Shown: in pieces, positions 9,618 through 57,657 of the stretch | Layout: every line of letters starts with the position of its first letter | Position numbering within the stretch: position 1 is the stretch's first letter | NCBI GenBank assembly: GCA_963995505.1 | Contig: OZ023190.1 | Location: 14,626,092 to 14,690,091 of the forward strand | DNA from: Hypericum androsaemum | Lineage: Eukaryota > Streptophyta > Magnoliopsida > Malpighiales > Hypericaceae | Reading direction: 5' to 3' | DNA length: 64,000 nucleotides | Program-made: the position numbers and the translations under genes | Notes under the pieces: model-generated | What the model saw: the letters and a program-made list of their open reading frames with translations, nothing else | Told to the model about the DNA's origin: nothing | Databases searched by the model: none

Positions 9618-9698
9618 TAAAACTGTGAACTTCGTAGAACCAAAAGAACTAGCATTCCACGCAAACGATTTGAGGTTGAATGCGCTGCTAATGCTTTC

Positions 9699-26330: not shown

Positions 26331-27240
26331 AAATGAAACCGTCGTAAACCCAGTGACTTAACATGTTTCTCGAACACTTCTCGAGGTAATGCTTTAGTCA
26401 TTGGATCTGCGGCCATATCTCGTGTAGATATGTGTTTCATACACAGTTCTTTATATTTTATTAAATTTCTCACAAAGTGAAATTTAATATCTATATGCTT
26501 AGCCCTACTATGGAATCTAGGATCCTTAGCATATGCTATAGCTGCCTAGTTGTCGCAGAATAGACTCACTGGCTCGATAGCACAAGGCGTATTCTACAGT
26601 AGTATTCAAATATTTCAAAATCCCTTTGACAGCCTTCCAGTGAGCGCTGTCTGGATCAGACTGATATCTGCTTGCTATCCCAACAGCATAGCAAATGTCA
26701 GGTCTAGTACACAACATTGCGTACATCAGGCATCCAACTGCATTGGCATAAGGAATCTTCTCCATGTCCCTACGTTGTTTAGCTGTTTTTGGGCACATGT
26801 CCTTACACAAATTATGACCTTTAACCAATGGGACATACTTTGAGTTACTGTGATCACAATTGAAACGTTCTACTACTTTGCGAATATATGTCTCTTGTAA
26901 AAGAGACACTATTCTCTTCGAACGATTCCTCGAAATCTTAACTCTGAGTATGTAATCCGCTTCACCCATGTCTTTCATTTCAAAGTTGGAAGATAACCAA
27001 TCTTTGATTTCGACAAGAAATCCCATGTCATTTCCAGCTAAAAGTATGTCATCAACATACAAAGTGATGATAACAAACTTCTTTCCTGATCGCTTAACAT
27101 ACACACAATGATCTTCGTCTATCATTATAAAATCATGCTGCATGATCGTATTATGAAAACGAATATACCATTGTCTAGACGACTGCTTAAAGCCATAAAT
27201 TGATCTATTTAATTTGCAAACTTTGTGTTCACAGCCTTTT
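26330..27240 (-). pseudogene. Copia-2 RT C-terminal part and damaged RNase H
   Basis: This frame (27143 down to 26526) follows a frameshift near 27240 caused by two missing bases. It holds the intact motif LYVDDILLAGND and the thumb region through DICYAVGIASRYQSDP. Shortly after LCYRASE the N-terminal half of RNase H is deleted: the sequence jumps to PVSLFCDN, in another frame, with a TAG at 26548-26546 in place of a sense codon. The rest, to about 26330, is recognisable RNase H (AYAKDPRFHSRAKHIDIK). No active RNase H could be made. Confidence 0.85.
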
Positions 27241-29373
27241 TGAATGTAGCCCAGGCTGAATCATATAAATTTCTTCATCCAATTCTCCGTGGAGAAAAGC
27301 AGTCTTTACATCCATTTGATGTAATTCTAGATTCATGTTAGCAACCATAGTTAAAATGACCCTAATTGACGTAAATCTAACAACACGTGCAAAAGTCTCC
27401 TCATAGTCTATCCCAGCCTGTTGTTTAAATCCTTGGGCAACCAAACGCGCTTTGTATCTTTCGATACTGCCATCTGCATTGCGCTTAATTTTGATCATAG
27501 AAGCCATTTCTTCTTCCATTGCATTCATCCATTCATCACGTTTTGGAGATGACAATGCTCCAGATACATTTTTAGGTTCATCTTCATCCTGCAGGATGGC
27601 CAGAAGAATTTCACTTGGACCACCAAATTTCTTTAGTGATACCAAGAACGCATTAGCCTCGCCTTCGATGTCAAATCGTCGGCGTGGTATGCTAGTTCTG
27701 CTAGACCTACGGTATTTCCGATTTTGATAAACATCTCTCATATATTCATCATATCCAGGAATCGCACTCCCACTGGGTGGAAATACTGTACTCCCACTGG
27801 AATAAGGAATTACCTCCGTTTCAGGACTCAGATCACGACCTTCCGGATCATTTTGAGTTGGAAAATCTCTATCTTCCTCCTCAATTCTCCCACTCGGAAG
27901 AAGTGATCCAGATGAATCTGGTTCATCTGTCTCATAAAGGGTAAGGTCACTACTAACCTCTCCCAACTTTGGAAATTCATTCTCCAAAAATGTGACATCT
28001 CGTGATTCAAATTCTGTTACATGTCCATTGTCCAGTTCACCCACGAACACGTACCCTTTAGATACCTCTGGGTATCTTATAAAGATACTTTTTCTACCTC
28101 TCGGTCCTAATTTACCGAAAGCACTTGAGATAGAATGGACATAGGACGCACACCCCCATGGCTTAAAATAGGATAAATCGGGCTTCCGATCTGTCCACAT
28201 TTCATAAGGAGTGGTTGTAACAGACTTAGAGGGAACACGGTTTAGAACGTATGCGGCAGTCAGGAGCGCATCTCTATAGAATGATATAGGCAAATTTGCC
28301 TCTGCCATCATCGATCTAACCATATCAAGAAGGGTTCTATTCCTTCTTTCAGCAACTCCATTTTGCTGTGGTGTATAAGGAATGGACAACTGATGTTCAA
28401 TTCCTTTTTCAATGCATAGAGCTTTGAACTCATCAGAAAGATATTCACGGCCACGATCAGTTCGTAAGGCCTTTATCTTTCTATCATTCTGATTCTCAAC
28501 AAAACTCATGTATGTCATGAAGCAGTTTAAGGCTTCAGACTTGTGAGAAATTAGGTATATCAGACCATATCTAGTATAGTCGTCAATAAAGGTGATGAAG
28601 TAATATGCTCCATGCCTTGCCCTCACGTTCATTGGACCACATATGTCAGAATGGACTAATTGTAGTGGAAATTTGGCTCTAGTCCCAGTACCGAAAGGTT
28701 TTCTAGTACTTTTCCCTTCTAGACAGAATACGCAACTAGGTAATATAGATTTCTCTATATTGCCCAACAGTCCTGCCTTAGCTAGACGGTTTAAACGATC
28801 CTGACCGATATGGCCAAGTCGAGAATGCCATAGTTTAATATCATCCTCTGATGAATTTGAACTAGTGACAAAAGAAAAACTTTCAGAATGATCAATATCC
28901 AGAATCAAAAAACCTTCCAATATATATCCAAGGCCAAAATAGGCATCATCCAAAAACAATATAACGGTGTCGTTCTCAAATGACAACCGGAAACCTAAAG
29001 ACATTAAGGCCGAAACTGAGATCAGGTTTCTTTGTATGTTTGGAGCAAACAACACGTCATGTAAAAGAAGGGCACGACCACCACGAAGATGTAATCTCCA
29101 AGTGCCCAGGCCTTTCACATCCACGCACGAGTTATTACCGATAAAAAAAGTTTTTGCTCTAGCCGGCAACCGCCTGTACTCAACGAACGAACCACGGTCT
29201 CTAGCTATATGGTCTGTCGCTCCTGAATCAATCACCCACACAGAATGTGATTCAGTTAGAAGGGTACAAGAGGATACATACAATTTACTCACACTTGAGT
29301 TTAGATGTACCTGCTTGGGCATTTTGCAATCTTTTGCAAAATGTCCCTTCTGTTGACAGTTAAAACATTTCAC
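27229..29373 (-). pseudogene. Copia-2 protease, integrase and RT N-terminal frame
   Basis: A 714-codon open frame begins with the zinc knuckle CFNCQQKGHFAKDC, then protease WVIDSGATDHIARDRG, pre-integrase LWHSRLGHIGQDRLNRLA, and the integrase core with FITFIDDYTRYG and IPYTPQQNGVAERRNRTLLD. It ends in RT with QMDVKTAFLHGELDEE and stops just after EIYMIQP, where two bases are missing. It has no ATG of its own at the junction with gag: a single missing base at about 29372 separates it from the gag frame, so it was once continuous with it. Key residues of protease and integrase are present. Confidence 0.87.
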
Positions 29374-30170
29374 TTTTGAAATGTTAAACCGCTTGTTCTT
29401 TTTAGCTTGGAGCCATCCAACTTGGTTCCATGGTTTTCAGCCTTTGGAGTTTGTTTACACTTACACTTACCCTTCCCTTTACCTTTACCTTTACCTTTTT
29501 TCTTTTTCCCACCACTCCCAGTCGAACAAATCGAATGGGCTTCTGGGTGGGATTTCATAGCTAGGAGGCGATCTTCCTCCAGCTCAAGGTGTCTGGCAAC
29601 ATCATCAAATGTTACCAAATGATCGGAATGGGTAAGATTCATCTTCATCTGTTCCCAATTTGGTGGTAGAGAATGGATGACAGCTTGAATCAGCTGCTCG
29701 TTGCTGAGTATGTGACCGGCCTCTGCCAGTTCACTGATCATATTGGACATCACTCTCAAGTGTTTCCTCATGGAAACTTCCGGACGCTTTTTAAAGGTAT
29801 CAAACCTTATGGTCAAAGCACGCAGCTTCGACACTGAAAGCTTTCCGAATTTTATTTTGAGAGTATCCGATAACTCTTTCGCGTTGTCATGCACGCGAAA
29901 TTGTCTGGTGATATCATCCATCATGGAACTCAATAAGATCAATCGAGCAGTAGTGTTTTTCCTCTTCCAAATAACATAAGCTTCCTTATCTCGCTTATGT
30001 TGAGCAGTTGTGCCTTCTTCAGGCTCATCCATTATGACATGTATGTGCTCCAGAACCTCTTGTTCTTCAAGCACATATTGGATTTTCATACTCCAATTGT
30101 CATAGTTTTCACCGTTGAGTTTTAACTCACGGTTTAGCTCAGCTATGATGGATCTAGAAGCGACTGACAT
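29370..30170 (-). CDS. Copia-2 Gag
   Basis: ATG 30170-30168 opens 266 codons: a Copia gag N-terminus (IIAELNRELKLNGENYDNW), the UBN2-type region (MRKHLRVMSNMISELAEAGH, HLELEEDRLLAMK) and a basic tail of repeated lysine-glycine pairs (KKKKGKGKGKGKGK) before the stop at 29370. Gag forms the particle and binds RNA. The zinc knuckle that should follow in frame is now in the next open frame because one base is lost, so this Gag would lack it. Confidence 0.85.
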   Translation of the reverse strand: MSVASRSIIAELNRELKLNGENYDNWSMKIQYVLEEQEVLEHIHVIMDEPEEGTTAQHKRDKEAYVIWKRKNTTARLILLSSMMDDITRQFRVHDNAKELSDTLKIKFGKLSVSKLRALTIRFDTFKKRPEVSMRKHLRVMSNMISELAEAGHILSNEQLIQAVIHSLPPNWEQMKMNLTHSDHLVTFDDVARHLELEEDRLLAMKSHPEAHSICSTGSGGKKKKGKGKGKGKGKCKCKQTPKAENHGTKLDGSKLKRTSGLTFQK

Positions 30171-35674: not shown

Positions 35675-36247
35675 ATGAGGCATATAGCCGTAAGCGCAAC
35701 AACGGCACCGACCGCCGCAGTCACGGTGGATGCGACGCAGCCGCCGGCGGTGATTCAGCCTCGGTCGCCGTGGCACTCACCGGTGCCCTACCTCTTCGGG
35801 GGCCTCGCGGCCATGTTGGGTCTGATCGCTTTCGCGCTCCTGATTCTAGCCTGTTCCTACTGGAAGCTGTCGGCGACCGGTCATCCGGACGACGACGGGG
35901 ACGTGGAGAGCCAGAAGGAGGGCGGAAATGGAGGGGGGAAGCCGGAGAAGGTTTACGAGGAGAAGTTTCTGGTTATAATGGCTGGGAACGAGAAGCCCAC
36001 CTTCTTGGCGACTCCTGTCTCTAACAACAAGCTCAAGGGCTCTTCCTTCAGAAACGACGACGTCGAGTTGCGAGAAGAAGACAATAATACCCAAAGCGAA
36101 GCTAAAGTGGTCGCCGCCGCTAAGGAGGAGGAAATGAGTGGCGCGGATAATACAACTTCTGGTAATTATAACTCAGCCGAAGCGGTGGAAAGTTCTAGAA
36201 CTCGTAGTAACGAAGAGGAGACCCAACAAGAAGAAGTAGACCACTAA
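35675..36247 (+). CDS. GDU: GLUTAMINE DUMPER (GDU) family membrane protein
   Basis: A single-exon gene of 190 residues from ATG 35675 to TAA 36247. The block SPWHSPVPYLFGGLAAMLGL (residues 31-50), continuing as a hydrophobic helix to about residue 60 and then SYWKLS, is the hallmark GDU transmembrane segment. The cytosolic VIMAG motif follows at residues 100-104 (EEKFLVIMAGNEKPTFLATP). GDU proteins are plant-specific, single-pass plasma-membrane proteins that promote amino-acid export with the ubiquitin ligase LOG2. The acidic, low-complexity C-terminal tail makes it somewhat longer than the common 100-160 residues. The start is supported by the upstream TATA box and 5' UTR. Confidence 0.93.
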   Translation: MRHIAVSATTAPTAAVTVDATQPPAVIQPRSPWHSPVPYLFGGLAAMLGLIAFALLILACSYWKLSATGHPDDDGDVESQKEGGNGGGKPEKVYEEKFLVIMAGNEKPTFLATPVSNNKLKGSSFRNDDVELREEDNNTQSEAKVVAAAKEEEMSGADNTTSGNYNSAEAVESSRTRSNEEETQQEEVDH

Positions 36248-37975: not shown

Positions 37976-37980
37976 ATTAT

Positions 37981-39121
37981 TGTTGCTGAGAAAGTGGGTA
38001 CAAGAACGTCAAGACTACCCGAGACGGATCCGGAGTGGTCGTTCCAAGGTCGGCCTAACAGAAAGGGTGAAAAAAGAGCTAGACTACGAGCTACGAGCTA
38101 AGGAAACGATAAAGAGTAAATAAGTTTGTTTGTTGTGTTCGTCATCTCCGTTCTCTCGCCCGAGCTCCCTTTATATAGCACGTCTTGACCTAGCTCCATC
38201 CTTCCCGTGCAAGAAACGCCGTCCCGAGTGAATATTTCGTTTCCAAATTAACCCAGCTTAGAATAGGAAAATATAAACCGTCTTCCTCATATGAACAGAT
38301 CTCGTCTCCGATTAGGAATATGCCGGTCGTGTCGCCCAAGCAACTGTGCCCCAAAGTCTTATTGGAATCTCGGAAATCCCGGCTCTACTTAGGAAAATAT
38401 AAGCCGAGCCGACCCGATCCTCTCGAACCTTCTACGCAAAAGCTCATTTTAAGCTTGTCATCGCCTAAACAGCTTACCGTCTTTAAACCCACAACGGGCC
38501 CAAGCCTTCCGCCTACATGGACCAAGATGAACTTTCTACCCGGGCCCCCAAAGCGGGATCGTCAAATCCATCCGGGCCCCTAAACGGAATCGGACCTTTC
38601 GCCCGCGAACACGAAGTAAAAGGCGGGCCTTACCGCCTTCAAAGCGGAAACTCGTAGGCCTACCGCCCGGGCTCCAAAACGGGCCTTACCGCCAGCTCCT
38701 CCAAGCGGGCTCATTCCGCTCAGGCCCTAGGCGGAATTCTCCTTCCGCCTTCAACCAAGAGAAAGGCCGAACCGGTCCTACTGCTCATGTTCCAAAGCGG
38801 ATCCTACCGCCCGTGCTTGCACATGAAGGGCGGTATACTACCGCCCGCCCGTGCTTGCACTTGACGTTCTTGTTGACGTTCTTGTTGATGTTCTTGTTGA
38901 TGTTCTTGACATGAAGGGCGGTATACTACCGCCCGTGCTTGCACATGAAGGGCGGTATACTACCGCCCGCCTTGAAGGGCGGTATATTACCGTCCACCTC
39001 AGAATGCATTGAGCGGTCCAATGGGTCGTTCAAAGACAACGACGAGTCCGGACCTTTCCACGCAAACCCGAAAACAACCATCTTCGTCTGAAACCCGGCA
39101 TATAATTTTTGTATTCCAACA
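37981..39121 (-). repeat. 3' LTR of the Gypsy element
   Basis: In element orientation it starts TGTTGGAATAC (39121) and ends CTCAGCAACA (37981). It contains the hairpin array listed separately and many CCGCC/GGCGG segments. Confidence 0.92.
38821..38996. repeat. Hairpin repeat array in the left Gypsy LTR (4 copies)
   Basis: Four copies of GGGCGGTATACTACCGCCC, an 8-bp inverted pair around TAC, are spaced by GTGCTTGCACATGAA-type linkers and a TTCTTGTTGA[C/T]G 12-mer array. The last copy is degenerate. Confidence 0.85.
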
Positions 39122-39136
39122 ATGCCCCCCGCACAT
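39122..39136 (-). other. Polypurine tract of the Gypsy element
   Basis: On the minus strand ATGTGCGGGGGGCAT directly precedes the 3' LTR start. Confidence 0.75.
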
Positions 39137-40008
39137 CAATACTTCGAGATAACCAATCGAGAAGTGTTGATGTGTTTTCCTCCAAATTTTCAAGTTTTGG
39201 TCAAACTTGAGTCCTTTGAATTTCAAGCTCCCACCTTTGACCTAGTAATAAAGGACCCCAAGCACTTTTGACCAAGCCTCTCCTTCCTTACACACTTTCA
39301 TCATCCTCTCTTTCAAACTCCTTAATGGAAAACAAATCTTGGCCTCCATCCCCTTCTCTTAACAACTTTAGTTAAGACTTTAATCCCTCCTCCTTATCTC
39401 CAAAGTTGCTAAGTTGTGCTTAATCTTCTTCCTCATCTTCAAAGTAAGTGTTCTTTTCTTTCTTCATTATGTTTGTAAAGGAAATACACAAAAGTAGCTC
39501 ACTTTGATCAAACTTTTATACGTCGTAGGAAGACCCTTACTTGGGATTGGAGTTGCTTTCCATTTTTCGGGAGCTTACATCTTCTTGACATCTTTTTGGC
39601 TCAACTCCACTTCTCCTTCAAGGTATGTTCCCAAGCCTAAACTCTTGCACACCAAGTGTTTGTGAAAATGCCAAATCCAACATTTTAGCACTTTTTGCCT
39701 TGGCTCTTGACTTAGGAGAATGTATTATGCAAGCTTTACCTTTTCGCCATCACCATCGGTCCATCACCTACCGCTTGTGCCTGAAATGAGCTCGACTTGT
39801 TCCACCTAAGCGGACTCGGACTCGGGCTCGTCCATCATCTCCGTGCTTGGCCCAAAGCGGTAAGCATATACTGTCCGGGCAGTTGGAGGACCAAGGCGAG
39901 ACGTTTGATCCGCCTAGAACGGTCGGGTGGACGAACAAACCATCATATTGCTCTTGTGTGAAACTGCCATTTGCTCACCTTTGCTTATTTTGTGATGATA
40001 GGACGATC
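39137..40008 (+). other. Region between Gypsy 3' LTR and the antisense gene
   Basis: No domain recognised. It must hold the promoter and 5' UTR of the plus-strand gene at 40009 if that gene is transcribed. An open frame extends upstream of 40009 without ATG, and TGATGATAG at 39992-40000 could be a 5'-UTR splice acceptor. Confidence 0.45.
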
Positions 40009-43000
40009 ATGCCGATACCTCCCGACGTAGCAAAAGAAGAGCAACTCTCCGCCGACATACTCATCACATCGACACTTGGAGAAAGCTACCCGGTCGACGA
40101 CATTTCTAAAGACAAAGAGAACCGGGTACTTGGACCCATGGTCACTAATGTTGAGTCCTTTGGAACCACCCTTCCGGTCTACTACCGTGACGTGCCTCTC
40201 TTTCAAGGTGCTCCCATCAATTTACACTTTTGGAGCAATAGTAGAGGATACCGTGGATGGCCTACACCGTTCGAAGAATTTGAGACTTGGCATGTCGTCT
40301 TGAAAAAATTCCATCATCCACTATGGGACCAAACCGGCATCGCCTCACTCTTGTCCCTTTGCACTCACAAACTCGAGCCATATCGTCCACTACTCAGCAC
40401 CTTGCTTCTCTATTGGTGTCCAAGTGCCAACGTGTTTCTTTTCCGTTCCGGTAAGCTATGCTCAATATAGATGATTCCTTTACCGTCTACATCAAGCTTT
40501 TCACCCGTCTTACTTAATCTTGCAGGAATGAAGACCATCACACTATACGACATGGCTGCCCTCTTCGGTCTTCACCCCGATGGTGAACCAATCCTTCCAT
40601 CCACCCCAGTGACCGATACAAATGCCTGGATCCGGCACGATGCCAAGAGGCCAACAGCAAATGGCTTTCCCGCCTATGTCGATGCTTACCGACTAGACGA
40701 TAAAGACCCTCGAAAAGAACTCAATCCCGGTACTGTTCCCGGAGAGAGTGATCCTGACTATATGCCCGGCGATGAGTTTCGCCGTAAGGACGAACATACG
40801 GCCTTCCTTCTTCTTTGGATTGCTCGTTACATCACCTGCCCGTCCTCCAAACGTGTATCGAATGAATTCTTCAACTTAGCCGCTGCACTCGCTGAAGGAC
40901 GGAAGATGGCGATGGGACAATTCGTCCTCTCCCACCTCTATAATCAGATGGCAGTATACGTGAACGCCTACCGATTGAAGAAGACCTTTACCGCCAACGG
41001 TCCCTTATGGATAGCTGCCATGTGGTGCTTGGCTTACTTCCCCGAACTGACGCCCTCGCTACCAACATACGATGGGTCATTATCCAGTTATAGCCACCAC
41101 CTTCTTCGGGCTCGGGTAAGGAAACCCATAAAAGATCTTCGTCCCTACTTTCGGGTCTTCAACAAGGACCACGGCGGCAACCAAGCTTCCCCACTTCTTC
41201 ACGAATCATGTCGTCCTAGCTTCCTCGAGTTTTCTGACGTGACCCAAAGTGCTGATGCCTGGAAGAATATACTCACAGCCCGAGATCTTATTAGTGGAGG
41301 CTCTACTGGAAGAATGGTTGTAGAACCATATAATCCTCACCTCGCCGCTGAGCAACTCGGCCTTGTCCAAGGAGTACCATTCCCGACCACCTACCTTTTC
41401 CATAGACAACGAGCCGACCGAGGTTCATACCAGTGGGAGAAGGTCGAGCTCTCCCTCGAGGTCAGCAGCTACCTTTTACAGCGAAGTACGATAAGCAACT
41501 TCAACTTCTCTCCCGGTCGTACTCCCGCCTTTGCGACTTGGTGGGCTACACTCACGTGTTGGGAGGCTAACGACAAGCAGCTAGCCGAGACCTTTACTCT
41601 TGTTAAAGCAACATCCCCCACGGCAGGCCATATCTCGAAGTCGGGAAAAACCCCTCCGAAGAAGAAGCAAAAGGTCGATCATTCAGCCGGAAGCGACCGG
41701 GCGGGTGCTTTGACATATCCTTCCAAAGCCGATGACTCCGGCCTACCAGAAGATGGTAAGTCTCCTAACTCTTACAACCGCCACGTTCCTTACTTGGCAA
41801 TTTCAAACATTCTTTTCTTGTTAAATAGGTGACGTCCTTCGAGCTTCCTCTCCTCCGGCCAGACTTGTGGGATACCCTTTCTTCTTCATCCGAAAAGGTA
41901 AAGATTAACTTCAGGAACTCACTCGGTATGAATCAAACGTTCCTAAAGTATGTTCTCACCATTTCAGGATTCATCACCTGAGGCATCTCCCGCATGAATC
42001 GACCCTACTACGGGCCCTGAGTCCACCCGTGCCATCTCTTCTTTAAGGCTCAGAAGAAATCCTCCGCGTCAGGGTCGCCCTACTAGCATTATGGATTCCG
42101 CACCCTTAGACGATGAAGCCGAGTTCCAAGTAATGCTCGATCCTGTTTACTCACCTGGTTATACTCCTTCACCTCCAGCAGCACGTCCTTCAACCGGCGG
42201 CACCACTTACACCGAGATGACCAAGATCGAGCAGGCGCCGGGCCTGATACGTCTCACTCCGCGGGATGATCCTTATCCCATAGGTGAGACCGTGCACGCC
42301 TCTACATCTATGACCATTACGCATCATCAGACCACCTCGGATGTCGTACATCCTCCAATGCCTTTAACCGTCGCACCGCTTCCTGCGGCTGGACCACCAA
42401 CACCTACCGTTGTTCCACCTCTGCCTACATCTCTGATCGACGCCTCCGAACTCGTAAGTGTTTTTTTTTCCAACTTTGTTTTTCCATACAATTCATCGCT
42501 CCTTAGGCCATATACGACACTTCATGCTAGGCTTTCTACGAGAGCATTGGATTTACTATAGACGAGTTGACCGATCCTCCGGTCATCCCCGCTTTGGTGC
42601 CTGAAGTCCCGATACTCGCTCATGCTGACACTGAAAAGGACAAGCGAAAAGCCAACTTGATCTGTTACCTTCGCGACCTCAAAAACCAGACAATAAGCAC
42701 TATGCTCCCAAAGCCTCCAGCCTATGCATATGACGCTCTTGAGTACTTGACGAACCATGGGCCATCCACCGGGACTCAGCTTGCTCCCATCCGTAAGCTA
42801 CATGCCGACTTTGCACATACGATCCATTGGTAAACTCCCTCGTACTCGTTCTTCTCTAACCGCATTGACTGAACCTTGTCCACTTCTAACACTTGTTTCC
42901 TTCAGGTATCAAAAGGGCCAAAGGTACGTCGACTCCATTCATTGTATGGAGCAAAATGCAGAAACCCACATTAAAACCTTCACGGAGACTCAGAACAAAA

Positions 43001-43413
43001 TGGCATCAAGGGTCGCCGAGTTCAAGCTGGTTAAGGCTGAAGAACTTGAAGCCGCGCAAACGGCCGCCACCCATGCTGAGATGACAAATCGAATTCGAGC
43101 TGAGATCGCTCGCCTTCAGGAGAGCTTGATCCAAGCCAATTCCGAGCACCAGAAATCACGAGACGAAATTGCCCGTGTGAAAGAGAAGAGAATAGCCTAC
43201 CATCAAGCCAACATGGAATACGGGATGACCATCTTCAAAAGCGCCAAAGATGAGTCCGAACGCGCCGACGTGCTATTAGGGCATGAGAGAAATGCCTATG
43301 CCAATGACCGAAGTTTTATCGATGCCGCCCGAGAACTAGTAGACGAGACGATCTCCTACCTTTCTGAATCCGATGTCGGTGCCGCCCCGCCGGAGGATGA
43401 CCGACGAGCATGA
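40009..43413 (+). CDS. Plant mobile domain (PMD) protein with coiled-coil tail, six exons, antisense inside the Gypsy element; one in-frame stop
   Basis: Exons are 40009-40450, 40526-41755, 41863-41897, 41968-42453, 42531-42829 and 42906-43413. The five introns (70-107 bases) are all GT-AG, and the exons sum to exactly 3000 bases. Residues about 60-510 match the plant mobile domain (aminotransferase-like, as in MAIN/MAIL1): LYWCPSANVFLFRSG joined to MKTITLYDMAALFGL, then FLLLWIARYITCPSS and FNLAAALAEGRKMAMGQFVL. An NLS-like PPKKKQKV lies near residue 525, followed by a proline-rich region and a helical, charged tail (about 830-970). A TGA at 41995-41997 interrupts the frame, consistent with a CGA-to-TGA change. 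Cellular PMD proteins act in silencing and transcript processing. A role for the element is inference. Start choice: first ATG before the conserved block. Confidence 0.8.
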
Positions 43414-43816
43414 GCTCGACTTCCTAAAGCTCTCTGATCCCGCTGGCTTGACTAGCTTTTTGTGTTAGGGATCTTTTGAACTGTCGTATTTATTATTTAC
43501 CCAACTTTGATGTATGTACGCTCGGTCTTATCGAGACCGTATGCTAGACTTGAGCACGACACATGATTTTGATGGCCCTTGAAGAGGCTGATGGAGTAAC
43601 TTGACCTTGGTTGACCTTTTACATTGACTATTAGCCAACTAGATACATTGTCAAGCTACACGTATGATCGATTCCATAAAAAACCGAAAAGACTATCGTC
43701 ATAGTCTATACCGACTAAGTACGATTCTACTACAAATCCATCACCGGCTAGGTTACATCTCTCGATTGTAAGTTCGTGCGTAATCTTCAAATAGACGATC
43801 ATCCACCCCCTCCCAC
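43414..43816. other. Spacer between the antisense gene and the integrase end
   Basis: The two genes converge here. No coding similarity to the missing integrase C-terminus is visible. Confidence 0.5.
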
Positions 43817-44290
43817 ATGCTAGGCCGGTACCTCTTCAGGTAACCCGAACCTATGTATGATGTGTTCTTTAAAGAACTGGATCACCATCTCTTGATTCAC
43901 AACCTTCATTGGGACTGCCTTCACCCACTTTGTAAAATAGTCAGTGGCTACTATGATGAAGGCGTGACCCTTGGTAGAAGCGGGATGGATCTTCCCGATA
44001 ACATCAACTGCCCAGCCCCGAAATGGCCAAGGCTTTACTACGGGATGAAAAGTGTCAGCCGGCGAGTGTTGAACTTGTCCATGTCTTTGGCATTCTTGAC
44101 AACCTTTCGCATAATTGATGCAGTCATTTGCCATACCCGGCCAAAAGTAGTAGTGACGATGCATCAACCATCTCATCTTAATGCCTGATTGGTGTGCTCC
44201 ACATATGCCTTCATGGACCTCTGTCATGGCTAGCATAGCTTCTTGTGGACTTGGGCAAACCAGAAGTAACCCGTCGATAGAGGGTGTCAT
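43817..44290 (-). pseudogene. Gypsy integrase, truncated
   Basis: The minus-strand frame carries the H2C2 zinc-binding module (HEGICGAHQSG, HYYFWPGMANDC, GCQECQRHG) and the start of the catalytic core (WAVDVIGKIHPAS, DYFTKWVKA). It stops with TAG after FGLPEEVPA. The second core aspartate, the glutamate and the C-terminal domain are absent. The frame is shifted by one relative to the RNase H before it, near 44270. Confidence 0.87.
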
Positions 44291-44975
44291 TGATGAGCTC
44301 GAAACGAAGAGCCCTTATCTTCAAAGCGTTGTCGGAGGAAGAGCTTGGGTCCTTGAGGTAGTCAATGTATTCCTGTCGCCAGTCTCGGTCGAGTTGTAAC
44401 AAAGCAATCTCGACTGTCGGGTTAAGCTCCTCTAATGCCGAGGTCGACCTGACCTTCACCGGTACGGAGTTAAATTTGGTGAATGCACGGAAACCAGACC
44501 CGACCTGTGCTAACTTGTTGGCCTCCATGTTCTTGGTGCGATCCACGAATCCAATGATCGCGTCTTCGAAACTCCGTAGTAACGACCGGGCTGCGTCACA
44601 ATAGGCCTGGAAGCCTTCTCGCTCGCACTTAAATTCGCCTGCCACTTGTTTGACCACCAACATTGAATCACCAAGCACCCGGACGGTTTCGGCCCCCAGG
44701 TCCTTCAAAATATATAACCCCAGCATCAAAGCCTCGTACTCGGCTCGATTGTTGGTGCAAGGAAAATTAAGTAGGAAGGATGCCTTTGTTTTGATACCAG
44801 CCGGAGACTTGATCACGATCCCAGCCCCGGCACATTTATTGGTATGGGAGCCGTCAAACTAGAGCGTCCATGGTTTCTTTGCCACTAACCTGAAGTCCAC
44901 CAAAGTACCAGCAGACATGTCAACACATGGGTGGTCGGCCAAGAAGTCAGCCAACGCTTGTCCCTTCACTGCTCG
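44211..44975 (-). pseudogene. Gypsy second RNase H (aRNH-like)
   Basis: After TAG codons at about 44973 and 44862, the frame reads FDGSHTNKCAGAGIVIKSP, then NNRAEYEALMLGLYILKDLG and VLGDSMLVVKQVAGEFKC. These are the D-E-D blocks of an RNase HI fold of the extra type found in Tat-lineage Gypsy elements after their own RNase H. The frame is the same as the RT frame upstream, so only the two stops separate them. Confidence 0.8.
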
Positions 44976-46682
44976 CTAAGGCACGAACGTTAAGTTGAAT
45001 TCTACTAAGGCTAATGCCCACTTGCCAAGTCTTCCTCTCATGATGGGTCCAGCGAGTAAGTGCTTGATGACGTCGGTCTGGGCTACTACCTTCACCTCCG
45101 TGGGTAAGAGGTAGTACCTCAACTTCCTACAAGCAAAGAAGAGACAAAGGCATAACTTTTCAATGGATGAATATCGTGTTTCCGTTCCTAAAAGAGATCG
45201 GCTCAAGTAGTAGACAGCTTGCTCCTTCCCGTCGTTATTCTCCTGAGCAAGTAGACACCTGATTGAATCTCGAGCGGCCGATATGTACAGCAACAATGGT
45301 CTGTTCGGGGTCGGCGGAGTGACTACGAGGGGTGAGGATAAATACTCTTTGAGCTCGTCGAAGGCTTGCTGGTGCTTGTCTTCCCATTGGAATTCGCCTC
45401 CCTTTAACTTGAGCAAGTTAGAAAACGACCGTGTCCGGCCCGCCGTGTTGGATATGAACCGACGCAAGAAATTTACCTGGCCGAGGAAACGTTGCAACTC
45501 CTTCTTGTTTCGAGGAGGTTGGGCTTGTTGAATCGCCTTGATCTTGTTTTTATTGATCTCGATGCCTCGCTTATGGACAAGAAATCCCAAGAAGTTCCCT
45601 GCAGACACCCCGAACGCACACTTTAACGGGTTCATCTTGAGCTGGTGTTCCCGCATCCTCTCAAACGATGCCCGTAAGTGCTTCAAGTGTTGGGCGTGAT
45701 CATGGGACTTGACCACCACATTGTCAATGTATACTTCCATAAATTTGCCGATGAAATCCGGAAAGATCAGGTGCATCCCCTTTTGGTATGTAGCTCCGGC
45801 GTTCTTGAGTCCAAAAGGCATAACTACCCATTCAAAAATCCCGATAGACCCTGGACATCTGAACGCCGTCTTATGAACGTCCTCCTTAGCAAGATAAATT
45901 TGATTATAACCGGAATGACCGTCCATGAAGCTCAGTACTTCATGCCCGCCTGCCGCGTCAACCAACATATCGGCGATGGGCATTTGATATTCATCTTTTG
46001 GAGTAGAAGAGTTTAAATCTCTAAAGTCAATGCAAACCCGAATTTTTCCATTCTTCTTGACAACGGGTACAATATTGGATAGCCACTCCACATAATTGGC
46101 TTTTCGTATGAAGCCGGCTTCTAAGAGTCTATCTATCTCTAGCTTGACTTTCTCTACTACTTCTGGCATCATCCTCCTCATCGGCTGCTGATAAGGCCAA
46201 AAACCCGGCCTTATAGGGAGTCGATGTTCTATGAGGGATCTATCCAGGCCTGGCATCTCGTCATAATCCCAAGCAAAATAGTCTTGGTACTCCGTCAGTA
46301 GCTCGACCAGGTCCTTCTCGAAGTCTTCAGGAAGCCGCTCACTGATGAACACAGGCCGGCCTCCTTTTTCTGATTGGAGAATTATTTCCTTTAGGGGATC
46401 CTTCACCTCTGCCTTGGCATCATCGAGCTTGCTTGGTGCCGGGTGAAGATCGCTCATCCTTAATAGCTCCAGTGGGTCTTGGCCGTCATCCTCGAAGACG
46501 TACTCGGCCGCTTCATATTGTGACAAGGCGTAGACCTCCATCCGCCTTGCCATCTCCTCAACAGTTGGATTACTCCCGAAAGGCAAGCCTAAGCAGTTGC
46601 CCCCCGAGTGCAGCTGTAACTGGTCGTTGGGTAGAAGGGACCTCCCTTTCGACCGAGCATGCGATCCCAGCAATGCGGCCAT
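44976..46682 (-). pseudogene. Gypsy reverse transcriptase and RNase H
   Basis: A 568-codon open frame reads RT fingers (IRVCIDFRDLNSSTPKDEYQ), motif A (LSFMDGHSGYNQI), motif B (FGLKNAGATYQKGM), motif C (EVYIDNVVVKS), the thumb, and an RNase H-like domain to FNLTFVP. Motif C has YIDN where the family has YIDD, so the second catalytic aspartate is asparagine. The frame is shifted by one base relative to the protease frame before it. Confidence 0.88.
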
Positions 46683-47613
46683 CTTCGTTGCTCCATGCCA
46701 TTGATGTTGGTATCACAGAGCCATCATAAAAGGCCGCTTCCACATTATTGGTATTCAACGCGAAGGGATTGGTGTCGGCAGCCACCAACTCTACCTTGCC
46801 GTCCGGCTTCCATTGGATGAGGAACTGATGAAGGGATGACGGGATGACTTGAGCCGAGTGAATCCAATCTCGCCCCAACAACCAGTTATAGGAAGTCTTC
46901 GCCTCTATGACAAAGAATGCGACCTCCCTACTCACAGAACCGACACTAACTTCGGCTGCGAGCATTTTGAGTGGACGTGTACCCTTTCCCGCAAAGTCCA
47001 TCATGACCATGTCAGTCGGAATCAAACGCTCCTTCTCCTTGTTCAGCCTCGAGAGTAATGACTGGGGAATGATATTGACGGTAGCCCCATTGTCCACCAG
47101 AATCCTTCCAACCGGCTTCCCGAATATATGAGCCGTGATGTACAACGGCTTGAGGTGCCTACACATGTTGGTGGTGGGTTTTGCAATAGTGATGCTATTG
47201 CTGAAGTCTTCAATTATGGGCACCGCCATAGACTTTTCTCCGATCTCGTACTTTCCGAGATCTCCTTCAATCACATCCCCTTCTAGGTAACTGGGCTAAT
47301 TCTCCTTTGGTCCGAACATGGCCGGGAGGGTGAAGACCATATTGACTTGTAAGTCTTGGTTATTTTCATCAAGGTCATCCTCATTCGCGCTATCCTCCAG
47401 CTCTACCTTCTCGCCCATCTCATCTTCACGAACAAAATGCCTCATCTGCCATGCCAGGTACTCTCTCTCGTTACTAGGACTTGGTGGTTCATCGTCCTCG
47501 CCGTCCAGCATGAGACCATCACCATCCCCAATAAGTTCATCTAAATCTAGTAACTCTTCTTCGTGATGGTCGGGGAGACCGTGTAGTCTCAACTTCTCAT
47601 AATTCTTGATCAT
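46570..47613 (-). pseudogene. Gypsy protease region
   Basis: The frame includes LYITAHIFGKPVGRILVDNG followed by ATVNIIPQ, the DNGA-type aspartic protease site of Tat elements, and SYNWLLGRDWIH, the second conserved block. Upstream, an acidic linker (47613-47296) lies in the same frame after a stop. A frameshift near 46680 separates it from RT. Confidence 0.82.
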
Positions 47614-50600
47614 AACGCAGGCTGGGTGTACGGCCTTTTCTCTTTGAGAGGGTTGCTAACCTCATTGTCCTCGCTAATGCTATCATCCCGACCTGACCCC
47701 TCATTCCGACTCGAGATGTCGTTGAGACTCAACTTCTTGAAGGATCCAAACCTTGCCACCCCCACATCTAGATCGACCATGACTTCCCCGTGTGAAGTGG
47801 TTTGCCCTTTTTGTGGGGAGTTATCTTTGGGGCGGACCTTACATTCCGTCTTCGATACCCATACCTTATTCAGCTCTCGTTCTCCCCCGAAGTCGACGTG
47901 CCTCTTTGCCTTGATGAGTGTTGCCGACATCCTCGATCCACTAAATTCCTTCATTGGAGCTTTCCCCTTGTCGAATCTTTGTGTTGATAACTTCGTTTCA
48001 TCACCAAAGTCTTTCATGGGCGTCTGGTCCTTGCCATCGACCTCTCTCATCGGTGCTTTTCCTTTGTCGGGCCTTGGGGCGTCGATCTCCATGGACCGGC
48101 TTTGTCTGAAAGCCGCACGGCATGGAACTTCGGGAAGGGCTATGAGGGCTTCTTGCTCTTTGAGTCGAGCCTTGCGCTCGGCTAACATTTTTTCCAGATC
48201 TCGAGTAACTTGCTTCTCGACCTGAATCCTACTTTCCAGGCGACGCCTTTGAGTATGAGTAAGGGGTTCAGGTGTAAGTGGTCTCGGTGCACGCCTCTTC
48301 TCTCCTAATCGGTGGAATACACCTCCCTGACGCTCAGTGCTATCTCGAAGATCTATTTTGATGTGAGGGTGACGAAGTTGTCCACCTTGCCCCCCGAGTC
48401 TTTCTTTTACGTCTCTTGGATGTTCTCGCCTCTCGGGACTCTCCTCCGGGCCTCTTGGAAGTTCTTTCCCTTCGAGTGTCTCCTTGAGCTCCTACAGCAG
48501 TTGTTGTGCCCTAAGTTGTCTCGTGGACTCACTCGACTGCTCTCGTCTTTCATGTTTAGGCGATCCTTGCTGTCCGTGTTTCCCGGGTCCATCCCTCTAG
48601 TCCCGGTGGTATTCTCGTCGTTCATTTCTCCCGAGTCTATCCCTCAGATCTCGAGAAGGTTCTTGGTGCCCATGCCCCCCGAGTTTCTCTCTCAGGTCTC
48701 GGGCAGGTTGACGTTTATGCCCCCCGAGTATCTCCCTCAGATCACGAGAAGGTTTTCGGCATCCATGTCCTCCGAGTATCTCTCTCAGGTCTCGGGAAGG
48801 TTCTTGGCATCCATGTCCGAGCTTCTCCCTTAGGTCGTTGAGGGGTGACCGTCGGGCATGCTTGGGATCTTCCTCCTCATTCTGGTCCCTTGCCATACTC
48901 ACCATATTGATGGGTACGGTGAAGGGTGCCGAGGGTTGTTCTTTGGGGAACCTCAAACGCCCGTCCTTGATTGCTTGTTGCACTTGGTTGCGAAATACCA
49001 CACAATTGGCTGTATTGTGTGACTTACTCGCATGCCACTTGCAGTACTTCATCCCCTTCAGCTCCTTCTCTTCGGGTATCTTGTGTCCGGGTGGTAACAC
49101 GATCTGGCCGTTCTTGAGGAGATTATCGAAAATCTCATCGGCCTTTGTGACATCGAACGAGTACTCTCGGCCGACCTCGTTGAAGCCCTTGCTCTGTTGA
49201 GGCGAGTTCCCAGGACGGGTGAACTCGTTGGGGACCATCATCGTCTTGTGGACCAAGCTTTCGCACTCGTATGGCTTACCCTTCTTGAACTCGGCCACCA
49301 TCTCCTCCATTGTTTGTCCTTCTTCGAGACCCCATTCATCACTAAATTGGTCAATCTCAAGCATAGGGTCATAGCGATGATAGGTACCTTTTGAAGAAGA
49401 AGTCCTTATGTCCTTTTCGTAGATCAGCTGATGTGCCATGGCAGCCTTTTGCGCCAACTCGGATAGGTCTCGGAACCTCCCGACTCTGAGCTTCTTCCGA
49501 AGGCGAAAGGTAAGCCCTTGCATGGCCAAAGCTGCTAAGTCAGACTCTGATAAGTTGGTCGGGCACCTGTTCTTCGCCTTCCGAAAGCGAATTATGAACT
49601 TTTCCACAGATTCACCTTCGAGCTGTTGCATATGAGCGAAGTCTGATATGGTTATGGTCGGCTCTGCCCTGTAGAATTGGTCGTGAAACTTCTGTTCCAT
49701 GTCAGGCCAATCTCGCACCGATCCCGGCGGTAGGCTAATATACCAAGCGAAGGCTGTCTTGGTCAGAGTCATAGGGAACTGGCGTAGAAGCCATGCTCCA
49801 TGGATCGAGGTTTCTCCGCATTGAATGACGAAGCGAGCAACGTGCTCTACCGTCAACTGGCTCTCTTCGCCCGAAAACTTGGTGAACTCCGGGACTCGAT
49901 ATCCCTGTGGGTAGTGGACTCAATCAACATCCGCCGGGTAAGGCTTAACGAACCTTGGATGCGGGATATTCCTTGGTTCGAACCCCAGGTTCCTAAGCAT
50001 CTCGGCCAATCCCTCCCTCTGGTAGACCTCTTGGTTGAGGTTAGGTATCGGCCGTCCCTCTAAAGGTGGTCGCTGGTTCAGCTCCTCTTCTTCAGGTCTA
50101 GGTTGTCGCTGGCTTGGCCTTGCTTGATTTCCATCATATATCAGCTGCCGAATGACGGGGTTGTGGACGTCCTCCTCGTCCAACTCGGTTTGCCTTGGTC
50201 GAGGGGTCATAGTGATCGGGGCGAAGTTTGGAATCATTGGCTCGTACAGGGCGTTTGTCCGGATGCTCCCCCTCTCGAAGGAACCTTGATCAGCCTCAAC
50301 CCTGGTAGGGCATGACCTCTCCTGAGCGCCGAGTGGTTGGGTGTACCCCATTCCTGAATCATCTATCCCTTGGGTCTCCTTGCGTGAGGATGCTTGGAAT
50401 GGCACGTACATGGGCGTCCCTGCTGGTGGCTTTCGGCTGAGCACATAAGGTGTTTCCGGCGCTTTGTCGAACGACATGGTGCCAACCTTGGAGTGATCGA
50501 ACGGTGCGGAGACACCCTTCCCTTTGCTTTGAGCCTCCAATGCCTTGGCAATTTTGTTCACTATAGCAGGCCTCACGATCTGGGTGAAGTAGTCCACGGT

Positions 50601-51113
50601 GTGCTGGTTGCTTTCCATAGCCGCTCTCTGGATTGATTCGTCCGCGTGTTTACAGACTTCTTGGATCTGACTGGAGATCTGATTAGAGAATCGCTTGTAG
50701 GACTCCTCTGTTTGTCGGGTCATCCCTGAGATCTCCTCTGAACGCTTGATGACATGTTCGAGGTCCTGTTGTAGTCATTCGTTCCTCTGCTCTATGATAT
50801 CAAGCTTCTCAACCATTGAGGTGATTTGGTCGGCTAGCCTCATGAGTAAAGCCGAGTCGGTAGTATTCGATTCCTTGAAGGGAACCGGGTTGGTATTGCT
50901 CCTCCCGATCCCCGTCTGGACAACAGGGAGAGCCGGCTCCTTGTTGCGAGCCGAGTTGGTAAAGTTCTTCCCGGCATTTTGCTGAGAAGATATGGGTGGT
51001 GCCGTCTCCTTGCCGGAAACTGCGTCGGATGAACTCCTCCCAACGAGTTGCTGGGAAGAAGGTGCCGCCTCCTTGGGGTTGGAATTGGCTTGAGCAGCAT
51101 GGTTCTTGGTCAT
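47610..51113 (-). pseudogene. Gypsy gag polyprotein, interrupted by stops
   Basis: ATG 51113-51111 starts a frame that runs, with stops at 50775-50777, 49920-49922 and around 48500-48597, to 47610. The gag core reads AWYISLPPGSVRDWPDMEQK, HDQFYRAEPTITISDF and MQQLEGESVEKFIIRFRKAK. A zinc-knuckle-like CKWHASKSHNTANC follows. The C-terminal region has the RDLREILGGHG repeats, then KGKAPM repeats. Gag assembles the particle and packages RNA. All segments down to 48188 are in one frame, so the stops are point changes. Confidence 0.82.
48610..48850 (-). repeat. Tandem repeats in the Gypsy gag C-terminus
   Basis: About five units of 50-60 bases encode variants of SRDLREILGGHGCRKP on the minus strand. 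Confidence 0.8.
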
Positions 51114-51156
51114 CTTGATCGAACGAAGCTAGACCGCCTTCTCAGACGCCCTCCTT

Positions 51157-51177
51157 AGTCCCACCGAGCGTGCCAAA
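51157..51177 (-). other. Probable primer-binding site of the Gypsy element
   Basis: On the minus strand, four bases inside the LTR, TTTTGGCACGCTCGGTGGGA resembles the GGCACGC-GGTGGGAC leader common in Tat-lineage elements. The matching tRNA was not identified. Confidence 0.55.
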
Positions 51178-51181
51178 AATA

Positions 51182-52343
51182 TGTTACGGAGAAAGTGGGT
51201 ACAAGAACGTCAAGACTACCCGAGACGGATCCGGAGTGGTCGTCCCAAGGTCGGCCTAACGGAAAGGGTGAAAAAAGAGCTAGACTACGAGCTACAAGCT
51301 ATGGAAATGATAAAGAGTAAATAAGTTTATTTGTTGTGTTCATCATCTCCGTTCTCTCGCCCGAGCTCCCTTTATATAGCACGTCTTGACCTAGCTCCAT
51401 CCTTCCCGTGCAAGAAACGCCGTCCCGAGTGAATATTTCGTTTCCAAATTAACCCGGCTTAGAATAGGAAAATATAAACCGTCTTCCTCATATGAACAGA
51501 TCTCGTCTCCGATTAGAAATATGCAGGTCGTGTCGCCCAAGCAACTGTGCCCCAAAGTCTTATTGGAATCCTGGAAATCCCGGCTCTACTTAGGAAAATA
51601 TAAGTCGAGCCGACCCGATCCTCTCGAACCTTCTACGCAAAAGCTCATTTTAAGCTTGTCATCACCTAAACAGCTTACCGTCTTTAAACCCACAACGGGC
51701 CCAAGCCTTCCGCCTACATGGACCAAGACGAACTTTCTACCCGGGCCCCCAAAGCGGGATCGTCAAATCCATCCGGGCCCCTAAACGGAATCGGACCTTC
51801 CGCCCGCGAACACGAAGTAAAAGGCGGGCCTTACCGCCTTCAAAGCGGAAACTCGTAGGCCTACCGCCCGGGCTCCAAAACGGGCCTTACCGCCAGCTCC
51901 TCCAAGCGGGCTCATTCCGCTCAGGCCCTAGGCGGAATTCTCCTTCCGCCTTCAACCAAGAGAAAGGCCGAACCGGTCCTACTGCTCATGTTCCAAAGCG
52001 GATCCTACCGCCCATGCTTGCACATGAAGGGCGGTATACTACCGCCCGTGCTTGCACATGAAGGGCGGTATACTACCGCCCGCCCGTGCTTGCACTTGAC
52101 GTTCTTGTTGACGTTCTTGTTGATGTTCTTGACATGAAGGGCGGTATACTACCGCCCGTGCTTGCACATGAAGGGCGGTATACTACCGCCGCCTTGAAGG
52201 GCGGTATACTACCGTCCACCTCAGAGTGCATTGAGCGGTCCAATGGGTCGTTCAAAGACAACGACGAGTCCGGACCTTTCCACGCAAACCCGGAAACAAC
52301 CATCTTCGTCTGAAACCCGGCATATAATTTTTGTATTCCAACA
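51182..52343 (-). repeat. 5' LTR of the Gypsy element
   Basis: 1162 bp, nearly identical to 37981-39121 with scattered substitutions and one more hairpin repeat copy. Confidence 0.92.
52020..52218. repeat. Hairpin repeat array in the right Gypsy LTR (5 copies)
   Basis: Five copies of the GGGCGGTATACTACCGCCC hairpin unit, one of which lacks a C before the last unit. The left LTR has four, so the array changed by whole units. Confidence 0.85.
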
Positions 52344-52348
52344 ATTAT

Positions 52349-56650: not shown

Positions 56651-57657
56651 GAGATAATTATTATCAGGACCCCCGGGTATAGTCAAATAGACTCTGAGGA
56701 CCCTGTAGTTTTTCTACTAATTACTGAGCCCCTGTAATTTGGTTATTATTATACATTCCGATCCCCGACTGATGTCAACATTTTTTCCTTCCTTTTTTTG
56801 TCATAGAAATGACCAAAATGCCCCTCCCACTTAAAAAAACAAAAAAGCAAATACCTCCTCTTTCCATGACCGCCGCCCTCAGCTTCCCCAAGACCGGCTT
56901 CGGCCCCAATTCTGACGTCGTCGCAATAGACGTCGGCGGCCAGATATTCCAGACCACGAGGCAGACCCTGACCCAGTCCGGCTCAAAACCGCTCGTCTCT
57001 TTGGTCCCGAACCAGTTCATCGACCGCGACCCGGACCTCTTCTCGGTCCTCCTCTCCCTCCTCCGGACCGGCGCCCTCCCCTCCAAGGCGAGGGCCTTCG
57101 ACCTCGAGGATTTGATCGCCGAGTCGCGATTCTATGGCGTGGAGCACCTCCTCATCGCCGCGCTCTCCGACCCCTCCCTCTTGGAGGGGTTCAACCTGGA
57201 GAGGTCGAACCGATTGCCGCTTAGCGAGCGGGACTCCCCCTCGGCGATCTCCGCCACGCCGTTCGGGACCCTCCACGTGTCCCACGGCTCCAAGATCACC
57301 TCCTTTGATTGGTCTCTGAGGAGGAAGCACACCATCCTCACGGAATTCCCCGCCGTCGACTCCCTCCTCGCGATTAACCCTAGCCTCGTTGCCGTCGGGG
57401 CCACCGACTTCTCCGGTCCATCGAGGTTTGGCAGAGTCCGGTAAAGGGGTTCTGATCTGAACGATGACAATTTTTTAGTAGGAGGGGCATTTTGGTCATT
57501 TCTATGACAAAAAAAGGAAGAAAAAAATGCTGACATTAGCCAGGGATCGGAATGTATAATAATAACCAAACTACAGGGGCTCAGTAATTAGTAGGAAAAC
57601 TACAGAGTCCTCAGAGTCTATTTAACTATACCCTGAGATCCTGATAGTAATTATCTC
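56651..57657. mobile_element. Pack-MULE carrying a BTB/POZ gene fragment
   Basis: The terminal repeats begin GAGATAATTATTATCAGGAC and return inverted at the right (ending CTGATAGTAATTATCTC), about 170 bp long. The perfect 9-bp target duplication ATAAAAGAA is at 56642-56650 and 57658-57666. The interior is GC-rich and carries one long open frame of host origin. It shares the TCATAGAAATGACCAAAATG subterminal module with the element at 22163. Confidence 0.92.
56866..57444 (+). CDS. Captured BTB/POZ (At5g41330-like) gene fragment, open
   Basis: From ATG 56866 (MTAALSF) the frame runs 192 codons without a stop. A possible earlier ATG at 56809 lies in the terminal repeat. The frame reads VVAIDVGGQIFQTTRQTL, FIDRDPDLFSVLLSLLRTG and LEDLIAESRFYGVEHLL, a T1-type BTB domain. 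It continues with RDSPSAISATPFGTLHVSHG and KITSFDWSLRRKHT, as in the plant At5g41330 family, whose members (about 460 residues) may act as CUL3 ubiquitin-ligase adaptors. It ends at VAVGATDFSGPSRFGRVR, so the C-terminal half is missing. The intact domain means a small protein is possible, but expression is unknown. Confidence 0.83.
   Translation: MTAALSFPKTGFGPNSDVVAIDVGGQIFQTTRQTLTQSGSKPLVSLVPNQFIDRDPDLFSVLLSLLRTGALPSKARAFDLEDLIAESRFYGVEHLLIAALSDPSLLEGFNLERSNRLPLSERDSPSAISATPFGTLHVSHGSKITSFDWSLRRKHTILTEFPAVDSLLAINPSLVAVGATDFSGPSRFGRVR

Follow-up and report, generated by a model that had tools for sequence, protein, structure and literature searches.

A probable antisense accessory gene with a plant mobile domain and five introns in a family of Tat-clade retrotransposons of Hypericum androsaemum

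We estimate at about 0.85 the probability that a family of LTR retrotransposons carries a conserved accessory gene in antisense orientation in the interval between integrase and the 3' LTR, with six exons, five short introns and a product of about 1010 amino acids. In this reading, the gene would have its own promoter, its transcript would be spliced in a host-like way, and the resulting nuclear protein would aid the element. The predicted product has an N-terminal plant mobile domain (PMD), followed by an NLS-like patch and a linker rich in proline, and ends in a long coiled-coil tail.

Results

The window, the 64-kb stretch of DNA that was analysed (contig C11 of a 385-Mb genome; G000:C11:14626092-14690091), contains an LTR retrotransposon at 37981-52343 on the minus strand. 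Its 3' LTR (37981-39121, minus strand, 1141 bp) and 5' LTR (51182-52343, minus strand, 1162 bp) are identical in 1113 of 1165 aligned columns, with 39 mismatches in 1138 ungapped columns. The 5-bp sequence ATTAT is present at both flanks of the element (37976-37980 and 52344-52348), consistent with the matching duplication described in the original prediction. Rfam scans at gathering scores and tRNA scans of the 64-kb window gave no hits.

The element's own genes are all on the minus strand. Gag is located at 48597-49856 (PF03732), and Pfam scans place an aspartic protease at 46570-47274 and reverse transcriptase with RNase H at 44976-46682. The protease and reverse transcriptase reading frames overlap at 46570-46682. 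Next to the reverse transcriptase-linked RNase H is a second RNase H of the aRH type (44211-44816; PF13456), a marker of the Tat clade, which is followed by an integrase remnant (43820-44290). The order on the minus strand is thus RT-RH, aRH, integrase. According to the available text of Neumann et al. 2019 (PMC6317226), an aRH between RNase H and integrase distinguishes elements of the Ogre/Retand type. Because its second RNase H lies between RNase H and integrase, the window element belongs to the Tat clade, Ogre/Retand type.

The integrase remnant consists of the zinc-binding domain and the first part of the core. Specifically, Integrase_H2C2 scores above its cut-off, while rve is matched over positions 4-69 of 102, below its cut-off. 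The match between the window copy and its relatives stops at 43843 in all eight full relatives, and in the two relatives that were translated past this point a longer integrase continues, as judged by eye. Pfam found no match in the presumed integrase ends of those two relatives. Judged from these alignments, the window integrase is internally deleted.

Between integrase and the 3' LTR lies an antisense gene on the plus strand, opposite to the element's own genes. Exon 1 (40009-40450), which contains the start of the PMD, is 442 nt long in 7 of 10 copies. Exon 2 (40526-41755) encodes most of the PMD and then the patch PKKKQKV, exon 3 (41829-41897) is short, and exon 4 (41968-42453) encodes the proline-rich linker. 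Exon 5 (42531-42829) is 299 nt long in 10 of 10 copies, and exon 6 (42906-43413) encodes the long helix or coiled-coil tail and ends with the stop. The five introns on the plus strand (40451-40525, 41756-41828, 41898-41967, 42454-42530 and 42830-42905) are all GT-AG, as had been proposed, with lengths of 70-77 bp; they are AT-richer than the six exons, with GC of 0.36-0.45 versus 0.49-0.55.

Spliced exons 1-2 match the PMD profile PF10536 with 127 bits (gathering score 34.9; E=1.2e-36); the match covers profile positions 1-346 of 347 and spans the junction of exons 1 and 2 at intron 1. The profile check suggested earlier therefore identifies the domain well above the gathering score, and the description of a multi-intron PMD gene antisense within a Tat-clade Gypsy element, recognisable by its second RNase H, holds for this locus. 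The NLS-like patch PKKKQKV is found in 9 of 9 copies of subfamilies A and B. The last exon encodes 168 residues, for which single-sequence AlphaFold2 predicts one continuous helix (residues 2-154, mean pLDDT 85.6). Patch and C-terminal helix had both been anticipated. Single-sequence prediction for exon 2 reached a pLDDT of only 32.7 and gave no usable fold. A search by sequence for solved structures returned no match below E 0.8, and none of 7999 scored candidates outside the own genome was a protein relative at E<=0.001.

A conserved non-coding stretch (39122-40008, plus strand) between the 3' LTR and the gene start is a candidate promoter and 5' UTR. From 39124 to 40008, its mean divergence is 1.6% among seven subfamily A copies, and its identity to the subfamily C copy is 90.9%, compared with 80.2% for the LTR of that copy. 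TATA-like hexamers were absent from the stretch upstream of the gene.

When the strong splice sites are used, the exons of the window copy add up to 3034 nt and the frame meets a stop after 584 codons, which contradicts the earlier figure of exactly 1000 codons. Related copies define the family structure as 442/1230/68/486/299/508 nt, namely 3033 nt and 1010 amino acids. Exon 3 is 68 nt long in the subfamily C copy on C4 (hereinafter the C4 copy) and in seven of the eight other fully read A/B copies, and the eighth has a deletion there; in the window, exon 3 is one nucleotide off the usual family length, and the frame is shifted. The premature stop in exon 4 of the window copy is present in none of the eight other fully read copies. 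Thus, the frame break of the window model results from a one-nucleotide length change in exon 3 together with the premature exon-4 stop. Both the antisense gene and the integrase of the window copy are decayed, so the intactness that the original prediction implied does not stand.

Alternative exon models for the window copy were also considered. Within narrow splice-site ranges, there is no stop-free six-exon model. When weak GT/AG sites were allowed mid-gene, 6296 stop-free models were obtained, seven of them with 3000 or 3003 nt, which makes the 1000-codon figure uninformative.

An LTR search of the own genome returned at least 50 matches (40 scored of 1744 first-look candidates). From these, ten LTR pairs were formed by position; they include that of the window and belong to the main subfamily or to close ones. 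They are near-full or shortened, the pair C3:4014303/4022219 being only about 9 kb long. The ten do not include C3:6715646/6725083, the flank of which contains only part of the upstream stretch, C4:3348080/3370938, which represents diverged subfamily C, or two close pairs of LTR fragments, located on C20 and C1.

Among the LTR matches listed, the upstream stretch and exon 1 adjoin the 3' LTR in the same orientation in all ten pairs. Matching 5-bp duplications are visible by eye in seven of the ten; the duplication of the C14 pair is ambiguous by eye, and for the two subfamily B pairs the matching sequence stops at some distance from the LTR edge. The LTRs of a pair diverge by 1.7-3.6% in subfamily A (eight pairs) and by 0.6-0.8% in subfamily B (two pairs).

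The gene was fully read in nine pairs (the window, L047-L052, L053 and L054). Over 4.7 kb, the eight other full copies share 96.6-97.9% identity with the window, and all nine have the five introns at identical positions. The search for further copies that had been suggested as a check thus recovered the same place, orientation and intron positions. Canonical splice-site dinucleotides are present at 87 of 90 positions, with one loss in each of three copies. Three of the nine copies have an uninterrupted 3033-nt frame from ATG to stop, and one of these three has lost one splice acceptor. Exon 1 and part of exon 2 were also found at one partnerless LTR place (L056), and no gene match was found beside the LTR at three others (L055, L057 and L058).

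The exon-6 protein has at least 128 matches in the genome (150 scored of 161 candidates), some of which are pieces of one copy. Among the matches listed, 20 have at least 80% identity, a large group has 64%-78%, and weaker ones extend down to 22%. A genome search with the PMD profile gave at least 135 matches, with 117 of 858 candidates scored; it is not a census, because the window's own gene is absent from its matches. Eight other PMD places were rejected as members of the family; one of them has a 25% match to exon 2 and one has 23-28% matches to reverse transcriptase or integrase. For a PMD cluster on C8, identity is just 22-26%.

The C4 copy, the LTR of which is about 80% identical, defines the deep comparison. 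Its exons measure 442/1230/68/489/299/508 nt, it has lost none of the 10 splice sites, and every exon phase is kept, while introns 2, 4 and 5 differ by 19-37%. Compared with two open copies, the sole exon indel is 3 nt long, and indels in introns and flanks measure 1, 2, 5, 8, 16 and 39 nt. The C4 copy is itself decayed, with four stops, at least three of them premature.

Nei-Gojobori dN/dS between the C4 copy and the three open-frame copies, the check between copies that had been suggested, is 0.23-0.25 for the whole gene. By parts, it is 0.22-0.23 in exons 1-2, 0.38-0.44 in exons 3-4, and 0.15-0.17 in exons 5-6. dS is 0.33-0.35 overall; it is about 0.09 for exon 1 and increases to about 1.0 for exon 6, a gradient that suggests recombination between subfamilies. 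Between one open copy and the C4 copy, the non-synonymous share is 0.469, lower than in any of 500 neutral simulations that used the observed mutation spectrum (mean 0.676, minimum 0.608). Against two open copies, the observed value is reached by 0 of 1000 simulations in exons 1-2 and likewise in exons 5-6, and by 29 and 22 of 1000 in exons 3-4.

Among the nine copies, ten variants change a stop, all of them singletons, and none of the 66 shared or between-subfamily variants does so; these counts exclude 44 gap columns and nine columns in which three or more bases occur. The average dN/dS within subfamily A is 0.55 (0.40-0.90), and the exons, at 1.7-3.2%, diverge no less than the upstream stretch does (1.6%). 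The ratio of non-synonymous to synonymous changes is 18:14 between A and B and only slightly higher, 131:81, among singletons. Values of this kind for the A copies and for the A/B comparison are expected from neutral decay after insertion, and the case for selection therefore rests on the C4 comparison. There, splice sites, exon phases and amino acids are conserved across diverged copies, which points to purifying selection on a family-borne gene, the deep comparison being with one decayed copy.

Discussion

The antisense orientation offers an explanation for the persistence of five introns in a retrotransposon. GT-AG introns of an antisense gene are unrecognised in sense genomic RNA, and a sense-oriented intron-bearing gene tends to lose its introns. 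Because they are unrecognised in sense genomic RNA, the antisense introns would survive each round of retrotransposition. That the introns are kept also implies that the full-length sense RNA, and not the gene's own mRNA, is the form in which the gene is transmitted.

We propose that transcription starts from a promoter of the gene's own within the conserved 0.9-kb stretch adjoining the 3' LTR, by analogy with Grande gene23. Judging from its sequence, the antisense transcript would be spliced like that of a host gene, and the product may be imported into the nucleus via PKKKQKV. The predicted coiled coil may mediate oligomerisation. In the nucleus, the product would probably aid the element as a regulator of chromatin or transcription.

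The form of this aid can be read in two ways. The PMD/coiled-coil protein may be an integration or packaging factor, such as a chromatin tether, rather than a silencing antagonist. We hold this version to be possible and put it forward tentatively: the NLS-like patch in 9 of 9 A/B copies and the long predicted helix fit it, and the Grande antisense protein is nuclear according to the available text of PMC7264820, whereas the PMD relatives MAIN and MAIL1 act in silencing (PMC5418596, as far as available). The second version is a role against PMD-based host silencing (MAIN/MAIL1), to which we give about one chance in four. A function as a chromatin or integration helper is at least as likely as counter-silencing. 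The most specific form of the second version describes a retrotransposon lineage with a host-style five-intron PMD/coiled-coil gene, the introns of which are hidden by antisense orientation and the spliced nuclear product of which is a decoy or antagonist of host MAIN/MAIL silencing; we consider it unlikely. An idea of this kind has precedent, since the use of captured PMDs against silencing has already been speculated upon for MULEs in the accessible part of PMC5418596.

A gene that was once useful and under past selection could also survive today only as decaying remnants. The frames of the window copy and of five of the eight other full copies are not open, and the subfamily A average dN/dS of 0.55 would suit such an account. 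We nevertheless judge it improbable: three of nine frames are still open, the stop-changing variants are all singletons, the two subfamily B LTR pairs differ by 0.6-0.8%, which indicates recent activity, and decay is expected of old insertions anyway.

A still smaller probability attaches to an antisense regulatory RNA, in which case transcription opposite to pol would matter and the protein would not. The available text of PMC7264820 puts forward the idea that antisense transcripts may form dsRNA. However, dN/dS of 0.23-0.25, differences at codon positions 1/2/3 of 75/94/201 and the keeping of exon phases indicate selection on the protein and disfavour such an RNA. A single event, in which one element captured a host PMD gene or received it by insertion, would suit the host-gene look (five introns, a PMD) and the orientation opposite to pol but is refuted for practical purposes by the recurrent copies: the start of the gene occupies an identical position in 10 of 10 LTR pairs, nine of them fully read, the gene is also present in a copy whose LTR identity is only about 80%, and it is just 22-26% identical to the C8 PMD cluster.

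A conserved antisense accessory gene of the family therefore remains our preferred reading, and its novelty is smaller than first suggested. Antisense ORFs in Tat elements, including those of Retand, and PMDs in Gypsy/Ogre elements have already been published. In the literature that was searchable, mostly outside subscription journals, we found no description of an antisense multi-intron PMD/coiled-coil gene, and the five-intron antisense form is the apparent new part.

Antisense accessory ORFs of Tat elements have long been known without an established function, and a review urges a look at antisense and spliced transcripts (PMC7264820, available portions). The family described here offers five conserved introns, a clear indication of purifying selection, numerous copies and a domain akin to that of MAIN and MAIL1. 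It makes two questions testable. One is why extra genes borne by elements are often antisense, an orientation in which an intron-bearing gene could persist; the other is whether element PMDs act on host silencing.

Extra ORFs with a PMD in Tat/Ogre Ty3-gypsy elements were reportedly described by Steinbauerova et al. in 2011. In the survey of Neumann et al. 2019 (PMC6317226), which scored extra ORFs of at least 250 codons, 57% of Ogre elements have a PMD (pfam10536) in the extra ORF. Such a PMD, common in Ogre and not defining, is present in the window element (PF10536, 127 bits), which resembles these elements as well in its Tat-clade membership and second RNase H. A five-intron gene with a coiled-coil tail, as in the window, is not described in the available text of that survey. 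The PMD was also the most frequent non-canonical domain in the screen of PMC9289625, as its accessible part reports; further background, likewise in part, is provided by PMC7156037, PMC10673657 and PMC11152179.

PMD genes are also located beside MULE transposases (Babu 2006, as cited in the available text of PMC5418596), and a PMD lies beside a MULE transposase at two of the places analysed here (L009 and L010). Those PMDs are of a different class and belong to a DNA transposon, whereas the window PMD is in a retrotransposon; the window exons have no tblastn match to L009 or L010 at E 1e-5. Closer are the PMD-A1/A2 clades, which are Gypsy-encoded, widespread in angiosperms and related to MAIN and MAIL1 (Ikeda et al. 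2017, PMC5418596, available portions). Both they and the window gene are Gypsy-borne PMDs, a likeness by description. Intron structure, orientation and selection, undiscussed in the accessible text on PMD-A1/A2, were analysed here for the window gene.

Antisense ORFs between pol and the 3' LTR are known from PMC7264820 and PMC11963269, as far as their text is available. In Retand elements, the accessible part of Vicient 2025 (PMC11963269) reports an antisense ORF with Transposase_28 (PF04195), TRP28, in 97% of recent clusters. TRP28 was scored as ORFs, and the word intron is absent from PMC11963269, whereas the window gene has a PMD and five introns. Pfam gave no match to PF04195 up to E=1 in exons 1-2 or from the ATG of exon 4 to exon 6, and the window gene thus differs from the Retand antisense Transposase_28 ORF in the exons scanned. 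Finally, Grande gene23 of maize is an antisense accessory gene by the 3' LTR with its own promoter and a nuclear protein, as described in the available text of PMC7264820. That text reports no clear protein similarity for gene23 and no PMD, in contrast to the PMD of the window gene; the two genes share the antisense accessory position next to the 3' LTR.

Repeats within the Tat-clade element

Both LTRs of the Tat-clade element contain short tandem repeats (window 38861-38999 and 51998-52190). Specifically, the repeat units are a 12-bp unit, TTGACGTTCTTG, and a 34-bp unit containing GCGGTATACTACCGCCC, and their copy number is unequal between the two LTRs. Another tandem repeat is located at the end of the gag frame (window 48630-48815), with periods of 48 and 93 bp, each divisible by three.

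Features outside the element in the window

A single reading frame beside the element (window 35675-36247) presumably resembles GLUTAMINE DUMPER proteins. A Pfam scan of this frame gave no match. The frame is likely a host gene adjoining the element. Two Copia-type elements, one on the plus strand (window 8016-11327) and one on the minus strand (window 26526-30170), have interrupted pol reading frames. An inverted repeat with 187-bp arms, 92% complementary, spans window 56651-57657, and a BTB_2/At2g24240-like fragment lies between its arms.

Divergence gradient in the C4 copy

The copy on contig C4 of the same genome (C4:3348080 onward; stretches L044 and L059) belongs to a diverged subfamily. 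Compared with the window family, its dS rises from ~0.09 in exon 1 to ~1.0 in exon 6. Such a rise inside a single gene suggests that the C4 copy is a recombinant element.

Other plant mobile domains in the genome

A cluster of eight plant mobile domain (PMD) open frames spans ~80 kb of contig C8 (G000:C8:16594889-16673436; L001-L008). The frames, four per strand, are 717-864 aa long and share 22-26% identity with the window's PMD.

In two further stretches, L009 (C20:4252000-4261000) and L010 (C6:16243000-16252000), PMD reading frames of another class than the window's lie antisense to Mutator-type transposase frames. The transposase side has Pfam matches to MULE and SWIM in L009 and to SWIM in L010. 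Because the PMD and transposase frames oppose each other, DNA transposons may also carry antisense PMDs in the H. androsaemum genome.
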